Under the pieces are notes generated by a model. The model was not told the origin of the DNA, ran no database searches, and was given only the letters and a program-made list of their open reading frames with translations. A stretch of 64,000 bases of DNA from Bacteroidota bacterium (lineage in GTDB: Bacteria > Bacteroidota > Bacteroidia > Cytophagales > Cyclobacteriaceae), in contig JACPVX010000041.1 in NCBI GenBank assembly GCA_016191555.1, positions 124,001-188,000 of the forward strand, written 5' to 3'. A program made the translations under genes and the position numbers. Numbering within the stretch: position 1 is the stretch's first letter; each line of letters starts with the position of its first letter. Shown one piece after another: positions 33,239 to 33,888 of the stretch.

Positions 33239-33386
33239 TAAAAAGCCCCAAATAAGGGGGCAGGTGGTGACGGATGGAATGATGACGCTACGGTCGGCAC
33301 GCTTGCAGACGAATGGGCCTCGTCAGTGTTGGACCCGGCGAACATCTTAGCTAATCTGCAAGGTGTAAGTAGGTATAATACTGCAT
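33239..33386 (-). repeat. Degenerate unit A: terminator, tRNA-Phe 3' end with insert, GIY-YIG start remnant
   Basis: This is the outermost and most decayed of three related units. In plus order it holds a hairpin (GCCCC 33245-33249 with GGGGC 33257-33261) after an A run. Next comes a copy of the tRNA-Phe 3' end split in two (33266-33280 and 33329-33336) by a 48-bp insert (33281-33328), then the first codons of a GIY-YIG gene on the minus strand (33351-33386). The order mirrors unit B and the intact tRNA locus. I read it as the scar of an earlier insertion of the same element. Confidence 0.75.
33351..33386 (-). pseudogene. Remnant of a GIY-YIG nuclease gene, first 11 codons
   Basis: On the minus strand from 33386 the sequence encodes MQYYTYLHLAD and then TAG. 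The MxYYTY opening is the same as that of the intact GIY-YIG gene at 33773 (MPYYTYIMQS), and the nucleotide context upstream (A-rich tract, CCCC hairpin) matches too. The rest of the gene is missing, and the sequence runs directly into the tRNA-derived repeat of unit A. It is best explained as an internal deletion of an older nuclease copy. Confidence 0.65.
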
Positions 33387-33389
33387 AGC

Positions 33390-33500
33390 TAAAAACAAAA
33401 AACCCCAACTATATTGTCGGGGTTTATGTGGTGACGGAGGGAATGCTGACGCTTCGGTCAGCACGCTGACAGGCCAAAGGCCTCGTCAGCGTTGAACCCC
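33390..33500 (-). repeat. Displaced unit B: terminator plus tRNA-Phe 3' end interrupted by a 47-bp palindromic insert
   Basis: The terminator hairpin (33403-33422) and its A-rich flank nearly duplicate those of the intact tRNA-Phe at 33779-33810. The tRNA 3' end follows as 33430-33444 (acceptor and T-stem half) and 33492-33500 (other T-arm half). They are separated by a 47-bp insert (33445-33491) exactly in the T-loop. The insert folds into two hairpins that share the arm GCTGAC: 33445-33462, and a larger one at 33464-33491 with an inner AGGCC/GGCCT stem. The stop codon of the GIY-YIG gene lies inside this repeat. Confidence 0.85.
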
Positions 33501-33773
33501 GTACAACTCTTGTAAACCATGAGGCGGTGGATATTTTTTGATGAATTCCATTGTCCGTTCCACTGATAGGTTTTTTAACTTCATTTCCAAAACAACCGCT
33601 TCTTGCTTCGTGCTTTTGATCGCAAACCACACTAATTGCCAAGGTGTGTACCTCTTTGTCGAGGGTGTCTTTCCACTATTATGTTCTATAATTCTTCTTT
33701 CTAGATTATCAGTTGACCCTTTGTAAAACGAGAGGTTCCGTTTACTCTGCATGATGTAGGTATAATACGGCAT
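33486..33773 (-). CDS. Small GIY-YIG endonuclease, tRNA-associated
   Basis: Start at 33773 gives 95 residues: MPYYTYIMQS, then a GIY-YIG core with the catalytic Arg region (FYKGSTDNLERRIIEHNSG) and TKRYTPWQLVWF, typical of single-domain UvrC-N-like nucleases. The frame stays open to 33845, but that extension only translates the tRNA-Phe 3' end and its terminator and is not credible. The C-terminal GVQR and the stop are encoded by the displaced tRNA-like repeat B. It sits immediately downstream of tRNA-Phe on the same strand, with only the terminator between. I infer a homing-type nuclease that targets the tRNA 3' end. Confidence 0.82.
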   Translation of the reverse strand: MPYYTYIMQSKRNLSFYKGSTDNLERRIIEHNSGKTPSTKRYTPWQLVWFAIKSTKQEAVVLEMKLKNLSVERTMEFIKKYPPPHGLQELYGVQR

Positions 33774-33778
33774 GGGAT

Positions 33779-33810
33779 AAAAACAAAAACCCCAACAGAA
33801 TTGTCGGGGT
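33779..33810 (-). terminator. Terminator of tRNA-Phe
   Basis: On the minus strand an 8-bp stem (CCCCGACA with TGTTGGGG, one G-T pair; 33790-33797 and 33802-33809) is followed by a T-rich run. A near copy lies in unit B at 33390-33422, and a shorter analogue in unit A. Confidence 0.85.
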
Positions 33811-33815
33811 TTGTG

Positions 33816-33888
33816 TGGTGACGGAGGGAATTGAACCCCCGACACAAGGATTTTCAGTCCTTTGCTCTACCAACTGAGCTACGTCACC
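33816..33888 (-). tRNA. tRNA-Phe (anticodon GAA)
   Basis: A complete 73-nt cloverleaf reads on the minus strand. The acceptor stem is GGTGACG/CGTCACC with discriminator A, the D-arm contains AGCTCAGTTGGTAGAGC, the anticodon arm is GGACTGAAAATCC with GAA, and the T-arm is GGGGGTTCAATTCCCTC. CCA is not encoded. It is the only tRNA I find in the window, and its 3' half is duplicated twice further along (units B and A). Confidence 0.97.

Follow-up and report, generated by a model that had tools for sequence, protein, structure and literature searches.

Very small GIY-YIG nuclease elements that probably home on tRNA and other structured-RNA genes and carry a replacement end of their target

A GIY-YIG nuclease gene downstream of tRNA-Phe in the window (i.e., the whole 64,000-nucleotide stretch of Bacteroidota DNA analyzed here) is best read as one copy of a selfish element of very small size, a member of a widespread family, accompanied by remnants of older copies. 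Each unit comprises a single-domain GIY-YIG nuclease open reading frame (ORF) and a piece of the target RNA gene. We consider it probable that these are homing-type elements that reside on structured-RNA genes and carry a replacement end of the gene they target.

In the proposed cycle, the nuclease would cut an element-free copy of the RNA gene, usually within the loop of the T-arm. With an element-bearing copy as template, repair would then bring in the ORF with a fresh 3' piece and terminator (class I) or, in a mirror class II, the ORF with a fresh 5' piece, the RNA gene staying whole. The old end, moved past the ORF, would act as a second homology arm, and a palindrome near the junction would split the displaced copy and make recutting impossible. 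Repeated rounds would produce tandem arrays with decaying outer copies. We infer both the cutting of the tRNA gene and the movement of the element from comparisons of sequences; the homing reading accounts for the replacement end, the displaced arm, the polarity of the arrays, the clades specific to targets, and the empty sites.

Organization of the tRNA-Phe locus

The earlier note on this DNA had described an intact tRNA-Phe gene, a GIY-YIG gene, and two displaced tRNA 3' ends on one strand, with decay increasing outward, and repeat analysis and alignment confirmed this order, strand, and decay (Table 1). A truncated nuclease start that it had placed between displaced ends B and A was found again on rereading by eye (33386-33351), and the near-identical terminator of unit B was recovered in repeat family D1. 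The intact copy and copy B share a 76-nt repeat, with 86% identity, that runs through the nuclease start, terminator, and tRNA 3' end. Copy B (about 33500-33428) and copy A (about 33336-33264) lie on the strand of tRNA-Phe, and each is interrupted in the T-loop by a hairpin pair, which measures 48 bp in B and is degenerate in A. Neither these palindromes nor the distinct terminator of copy A, which differs from those of copy B and the intact gene and is possibly the original native one, had appeared in the earlier note. The T-loop point of the intact gene that corresponds to the junction in copy B is the presumptive insertion or cut site. Inserts near-identical to the palindrome pair of copy B are present in L057 and L096, and a remnant similar to the truncated start also occurs in L056.

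TABLE 1 Features of the tRNA-Phe locus (positions in the window)
Feature	Positions	Strand	Basis
Intact tRNA-Phe (GAA), target gene	33815..33888	minus	ARAGORN; Rfam, 75.9 bits
T-loop point TTCA/ATTCC of intact tRNA-Phe, equivalent of the junction in copy B	33830..33832	minus	Alignment of copy B with the tRNA
Terminator-like hairpin T1, 3' of intact tRNA-Phe	33781..33811	minus	Reading by eye; recurs as repeat family D1
GIY-YIG nuclease ORF, 95 aa plus stop	33486..33773	minus	Pfam; conserved residues; dN/dS
Copy B, 5' half of T-arm, GGGGTTCAA, overlapping the 3' end of the ORF	33492..33500	minus	Sequence reading; alignment
Palindrome pair, hairpin forming (28 + 20 bp), interrupting copy B in the T-loop	33444..33491	minus	Insert dG of -29.9
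Displaced tRNA-Phe 3' end, copy B, TTCCCTCCGTCACCAC	33428..33443	minus	Repeat analysis; reading; alignment
Terminator T2, almost the same as T1	33391..33425	minus	Repeat family D1; reading
Truncated nuclease start MQYYTYLHLAD* (stop after 11 codons)	33351..33386	minus	Read by eye
Copy A, degenerate T-arm half and hairpin pair	33280..33336	minus	Repeat families D2 and D3; reading
Displaced tRNA-Phe 3' end, copy A, one substitution	33264..33279	minus	Repeat analysis; alignment
Terminator T3, differing from T1 and T2	33240..33263	minus	Reading

The unit has as neighbors a histidine kinase (Pfam) and a 435-aa protein named, from its sequence, as a putative iron-sulfur type. An Rfam scan of the window at gathering thresholds detected tRNA alone and no self-splicing group I intron RNA.

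tRNA 3' ends are the classical insertion sites of tyrosine-recombinase islands, and their insertion regenerates the tRNA. The location at a tRNA 3' end and the regenerated tRNA would therefore suit an integrase island reduced to a cargo nuclease, and regeneration of the tRNA end by incoming DNA is a property that the two systems share. We nevertheless regard this explanation as hardly credible. The window unit contains no integrase-sized ORF, in agreement with the absence of an integrase stated in the earlier note; the longest overlapping frame (119 aa) is the GIY-YIG one, and the remaining frames are mechanical ORFs of 43 to 72 aa. Units measure about 320 to 470 bp at different tRNAs, i.e., less than 500 bp, their displaced pieces are interrupted in the T-loop, and class II duplicates the 5' part of the gene; we know of no integrase sites that do so. 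The size of less than 400 bp given in the earlier note holds for the window unit (387 bp) and most others (about 320 to 390 bp), but some reach about 470 bp. Similarly, its proposal of insertion at the tRNA 3' end stands insofar as the cognate 3' end is displaced, but the junction lies mostly in the T-loop or T-arm rather than at the 3' terminus.

A conserved nuclease under purifying selection

The window ORF matches PF01541 at 58.3 bits (Pfam cutoff, 22.6), its sole match at E values up to 0.001, and no RAYT transposase was matched (Pfam). Among 31 chosen sequences, Y6, Y17, G19, H31, and A59 are invariant, and S10, R27, N32, T39, P44, E63, and K67 are at least 90% conserved; we take these to include the catalytic residues of the GIY-YIG active site. 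The dN/dS values of the four distinct unsaturated pairs were 0.055 and 0.127 (window nuclease versus the two copies of Flammeovirgaceae MAG CoA8), 0.144 (between the two CoA8 copies), and 0.175 (UBA2338 versus ACE24); five further pairs were saturated. The nuclease is thus under purifying selection.

An AlphaFold2 model of the window nuclease had a mean pLDDT of 89.5, and both its fold and sequence searches gave UPF0213 (1zg2) and Slx1 of Slx1-Slx4, a branched-DNA nuclease, as best matches. To our knowledge, no tRNA-linked genomic arrangement of UPF0213/Slx1-type domains is known. Carriage by phages or plasmids was rejected; the window protein had one weak match in 50,697 phage records and five matches in plasmid records, at about 36% identity.

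Association with tRNA genes and displaced gene pieces

The window belongs to a 4.12-Mb assembly (91 contigs) that contains six PF01541 matches. Three of them lie on the same strand as a tRNA gene and no more than 350 bp downstream of it, with gaps of 48 bp for Phe, 350 bp for Ser-GGA (L002), and 45 bp for Pro-TGG (L006). Of the 29 tRNA genes tested (i.e., those in fetched stretches of this genome), only these three are followed by a copy of their own 3' end, with scores of 34, 40, and 26 versus 17, 18, and 20 for the best of 20 shuffles. Three more tRNA rows reach or exceed their shuffles (Ser in L006, 22 versus 18; Thr in L008, 26 versus 20; Ile in L010, 21 versus 21), which we read as the T-arm of an adjacent tRNA gene. 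In CoA8, the nucleases are 93 to 97% identical to that of the window (L056 and L057), and the neighbor protein is 95% identical. As a separate observation, imperfect repeats of about 30 bp (GTAGCTTCAGCGAAGGAGGATTTCCGA) lie between tRNA-Ser and its nuclease gene in L002 (1800-2040, minus strand), and the motif also occurs 3' of the displaced copy.

Loci were fetched around small GIY-YIG matches in 29 genomes (this genome and its relatives), and wherever a tRNA was present, the nearest one shared the strand of the nuclease. Two arrangements recur. Class I has the order tRNA, nuclease, and displaced 3' piece, and class II is its mirror image, with a displaced 5' piece, the nuclease, and the intact tRNA. 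In L067, for example, a displaced piece consisting of tRNA-Arg nt 1 to 51 and containing a 16-bp palindrome precedes the ORF and a whole tRNA-Arg. The class II ORF extends into the intact tRNA in 8 of 15 rows, with its stop at tRNA nt 9 to 37.

A phylum sample of 90 loci was drawn from PF01541 matches listed in 90 genomes without regard to tRNAs. It consisted of 30 returned loci and 60 from further down the ranked list of best-ranked matches; members of one array counted as one locus, G123:C1:212480 and G115:C86:54531 were skipped, and G102:C34 (L252) entered out of rank order because of its array-like look. Two hidden Markov models (HMMs), built solely on the earlier set, divided the sample into a tRNA class (43 loci) and a sister class (47 loci). 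Matches lay within 450 bp of a tRNA at 25 of the 43 tRNA-class loci and at none of the 47 sister-class loci, with roughly 0.8% of the window's genome falling that near to a tRNA. We therefore rejected chance proximity, in line with the enrichment beside tRNAs on which the earlier note had made its reading depend, and also the idea that all small GIY-YIG genes are tRNA associated. All 30 tRNA-near matches lay on the strand of the tRNA (by score, 24 belonged to class I and 6 to class II), and the adjoining tRNA was complete according to ARAGORN at the loci counted as near, the exception being L252, with a tRNA half alone. No tRNA accompanied the other 18 tRNA-class loci. Four of them (L169, L210, L222, and L230) are about 430 bp or less from a contig end, L193 and L227 sit in RNase P RNA genes, L252 begins at a tRNA half, ten split weakly between the HMMs (0.1 to 21.4 bits), and L199 falls in none of these groups.

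Displaced pieces were tested by comparing the cognate tRNA with 40 noncognate control tRNAs, using one row per locus and gaps of up to 180 bp (hence excluding L002) and leaving out L259, L261, and L269. The cognate piece outscored all controls at 20 of 24 phylum loci and at 42 of 56 loci of a first set, made up of genus and order relatives and named loci; displaced cognate ends like those of the window locus are found elsewhere. The test failed at 4 and 14 loci, respectively; in the first set, L067 and L074 fail only through another tRNA gene in the stretch that scores higher, and L028 narrowly misses the score limit. L068 was assigned to class I by hand from its sequence, and L098 was left out because it is the same locus as L046. 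Four further genomes were reached through named loci. Three of these, from Patescibacteria groups, carry tRNA-near nucleases (e.g., L260, L263, L267, and L268), with a clear displaced piece in two of seven tested loci (L263 and L267 only); in L262, the nearest tRNA is on the opposite strand at 80 bp. In Winogradskyella tangerina, one tested locus has a displaced piece (L265) and one does not (L273).

tmRNA and RNase P RNA genes as targets

In L075, the nuclease lies 3' of tmRNA, and the 3' T-arm and terminator of tmRNA are repeated past the ORF; the displaced T-arm is split by 40 nt, as in the tRNA cases. L193 (1432-1735) and L227 (1470-1773) have a GIY-YIG ORF within the gene for RNase P RNA. 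A 24-nt inverted repeat (complementarity of 92% and 100%, respectively) at the start of this gene encloses the ORF. From the known anatomy of RNase P, we take this repeat to be the P3 stem. Upstream of the ORFs, a search for a displaced piece of the RNase P RNA gene yielded nothing longer than 10 nt, and since a loop can hold an ORF without a displaced piece, such a case can be accommodated. The earlier note had proposed a fresh tRNA 3' end, as in class I; the mirror class replaces the 5' part, and tmRNA and RNase P RNA genes are used as well. Overall, its interpretation is partly supported.

Palindromes in the displaced pieces

Hairpin-forming inserts interrupt the displaced pieces at 30 of 80 tested loci (35 inserts). 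Although not all are independent, 23 of the 35 fall in tRNA loops, to which 29% of positions belong; of the others, 11 are placed within stems or in the stretches separating arms and 1 lies beyond the tRNA, so an exclusive placement in loops was rejected (12 of 35 elsewhere). The point TTC^GA of the T-loop is interrupted in L028, L040, L068, L043, L099, L107, L204, L246, and L248, and a single tRNA point can recur in several genomes, e.g., the Ser-TGA anticodon loop in L086, L087, and L204. In 27 of 35 cases, 6 to 20 nt separate the insert from that end of the displaced piece that faces the nuclease. Our reading is that the palindromes may mark the site of insertion or cutting.

One exact palindrome 20-mer occurs at 11 sites in 7 of 40 genus genomes. 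Seven sites are in displaced tRNA pieces (twice in L099 and once each in L097, L043, L158, L161, and L162, the last three contexts being judged by eye), and four are outside such pieces (L157, L159 twice, and L160). These numbers led us to reject an ordinary high-copy repeat. The same 20-bp palindrome splits a displaced tRNA-Asn 5' piece in L158 (about 1084-1240) and a displaced tRNA-Gly 3' piece in L162 (about 880-990), neither with a nuclease match in the stretch; we read these palindrome-split pieces as scars or nonautonomous copies.

A more specific mechanism, which we put forward tentatively as possible but doubtful, is that the nuclease recognizes the hairpin as such, in the way of its Slx1-like relatives, and opens it in the loop, the substrate being a tRNA arm or other stem-loop in the form of a cruciform or single-stranded DNA. 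The wider proposal built on it, equally tentative as a whole, is that the nuclease gene and palindromes would enter loops of structured-RNA genes (the T, anticodon, and D loops of tRNA, the T-arm of tmRNA, and the P3 loop of RNase P RNA), that cutting would have left the palindromes of displaced copies as its footprints, and that in the repeat-flanked sister clade this machine would act on repeats instead, which would make it the GIY-YIG equivalent of REP/RAYT systems.

Occupied, decayed, and empty sites and tandem arrays

Orthologous tRNA-Phe sites were located by tracing the neighbor gene in 40 genus genomes, and 30 loci were fetched. A whole tRNA-Phe was present in 22 of them, 6 with a nuclease, 4 decayed or with a scar only (3 truncated nucleases and L128, with a hairpin and displaced end alone, read by eye), and 12 without a nuclease match. 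When as much as 700 nt of sequence following the tRNA was checked, a displaced 3' end was found at all five readable occupied sites (scores of 24 to 34; shuffle maxima of 17 to 23); the sixth is interrupted by the end of its contig. None of the 12 empty sites had such an end, although L139 and L156 exceeded their shuffles by 1 to 2 points through the terminator directly behind the tRNA. Relatives with empty tRNA-Phe sites, which the earlier note had suggested looking for, therefore exist.

The tRNA-Phe sequence is the same in 21 of the 22 loci, whether occupied, decayed, or empty (L139 differs at two positions). Mutation of the tRNA as a means of protecting the carrier was thus not seen for tRNA-Phe, and the carrier's own tRNA should still be a target. 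Nuclease identity at this locus never exceeds host-protein identity (55 pairs, one equal); this comparison gave no sign of cross-species transfer at tRNA-Phe, and vertical descent with loss also fits this lineage.

Several loci carry more than one unit. L096 has the nuclease unit twice, the outer one truncated, and its sister locus L145 is collapsed and L148 empty. In CoA8, a complete unit in L056 is accompanied by the end of another and by a remnant, whereas L057 contains the tRNA and a whole unit; the two stretches presumably join. Broken nuclease copies are frequent in arrays. Among 17 arrays, the tRNA-proximal copy outscores the outermost in 13 and ties with it in 2. Eleven arrays show a score difference of more than 10 bits, and the near copy is the higher one in 10 of these, including L220, which runs into a contig end; this bears out the claim of decay rising outward; L234, whose outer copy scores higher, goes against this trend. 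A 210-aa ORF downstream of the tRNA-Thr element in L234 (1902-2000) has an unusually high score (122 bits) and is perhaps a double GIY-YIG protein. In L252 (1438-4333), about eight nuclease units follow each other in tandem beside a tRNA-Met-like 3' half; the 5' half of that gene was not seen upstream.

Slippage or unequal crossing-over, doubling the tRNA end, terminator, and gene start without any homing, would be another source of such structures. Many loci have similar terminators behind the intact and the displaced end and other loci have dissimilar ones, and where they are the same, as is often the case, local tandem duplication would also produce them. The two units of G002 are almost identical where both are present, the units of L252 recur with a 364-bp period, and copy number seems to differ between this genome and its close relative CoA8, all in keeping with duplication. 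However, duplication explains neither the presence of one nuclease class beside tRNAs, with anticodon-specific clades across families, nor the mirror class II with displaced 5' pieces, nor the recurrence of palindromes at particular points within displaced pieces. Some of the growth of arrays is probably due to tandem duplication; as the explanation of the units themselves, we judge it unlikely.

Nuclease phylogeny and target specificity

The nuclease tree tracks the target tRNA and not the host genome. In a tree of 87 domains, 17 rows without a tRNA form one clade (SH-aLRT, 83), and the tRNA-linked rows group by target. With one row per locus, anticodon required 28 changes on the tree versus at least 40 in 300 shuffles (54 rows). 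For the 46 rows with a genome handle, anticodon required 26 changes versus at least 35 in shuffles, whereas host genome required 38, a number as low in 240 of 300 shuffles. A phylum-wide tree gave 47 anticodon changes versus at least 64 (83 rows, 31 labels), and its Val, Ser-TGA/CGA, and Leu groups mix host families. An Arg-CCG row (L061) falls in the Phe group as an exception. The trees, from which L041, L123, and L124 were left out, rest on 73 columns, so many forks are unresolved.

These results also bear on the view that the nucleases are not selfish but are host genes of long standing, passed on vertically and sometimes lost, that serve the host at tRNA loci (e.g., in repair or control of tRNA gene copies). 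Purifying selection, the scarcity of phage and plasmid matches, and the fit of the tRNA-Phe lineage to descent along hosts agree with such a role. Set against it are patchy and decayed copies within one genus, the many broken copies in arrays, the lack of clustering by host genome on the tree, and the uneven number of PF01541 matches per genome, up to 25 in one and one or two in many among the matches listed. We consider a host function of this kind very improbable, and homing elements with a replacement gene end remain our preferred reading.

Sister-class loci

Direct repeats flank many sister-class genes, e.g., those of L003 (1200-2100; G000:C91:212662), L039, L072, and L033, and such repeats (GTCATTGCGAGC...GAAGCAATC) resemble dispersed repeats known from this phylum. 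The arrangement looks like a REP type. A genome-wide count of the L003 repeat pattern found only the copy in L003 itself. A flanking repeat scoring at least 30 and above 10 shuffles was present in 33 of 51 sister-class, 66 of 87 tRNA-class, and 11 of 15 unassigned cases. REP palindromes with RAYT transposases are reportedly another case in which short palindromes are tied to a single small gene for a DNA-cutting type of enzyme. Unlike in that system, the enzyme here is a GIY-YIG nuclease and not a tyrosine transposase, and the palindromes lie within displaced tRNA pieces.

Comparison with known systems and implications

The nearest parallel is provided by the mobile ORFs (mORFs) of fungal mitochondria, which are associated with duplicated 3' ends of host genes (atp6, atp9, cox2, and nad3 in Glomus; atp6 in Allomyces); the four Glomus mORFs are of the LAGLIDADG type except that of atp9, which is GIY-YIG (PMC3630166, accessible part). 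As described there, the replacement 3' end of the host gene arrives with an endonuclease ORF, and the native end is pushed to a position downstream, as here. The mORFs in that part of the source occupy protein genes of organelles, whereas the present elements occupy bacterial tRNA, tmRNA, and RNase P RNA genes and encode a nuclease of about 95 aa; they also include a mirror 5' class, form tandem arrays, and have palindromes close to the junction.

A second parallel is SegB of T-even phages, a free-standing GIY-YIG homing endonuclease that is colocated with tRNA genes and implicated in cutting tRNA-containing DNA, and for which amplification has been described (PMC13096335, accessible part). 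The same text reports that the 3' region of segB shares microhomology with the 5' region of a phage tRNA-Tyr, a feature reminiscent of class II. Proximity of a GIY-YIG nuclease to tRNA genes is common to both systems. To judge from that text, SegB differs in being encoded by phage genes, whereas displaced tRNA ends with palindromes belong to the elements described here. GIY-YIG ORFs are sparse in CPR rRNA insertions, according to the accessible part of PMC11270868. Full-text searches of the open-access literature, judged by title and start of abstract, brought up no paper on this arrangement; subscription papers and preprints fall outside this scope.

If the homing reading is true, these elements would represent a common class of minimal bacterial selfish element, consisting of about 350 bp and one gene, for which essential RNA genes are a safe home secured by the element's own replacement end. 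A homing element could then live in a tRNA gene without an intron, many of the small GIY-YIG genes of Bacteroidota would be accounted for, and tRNA-specific nucleases would become available for study. The question would also be raised of how the carrier's own tRNA is spared.

Tandem arrangement also occurs in the sister class, whose GIY-YIG gene in L205 (1504-2563) is repeated at intervals of about 420 bp.
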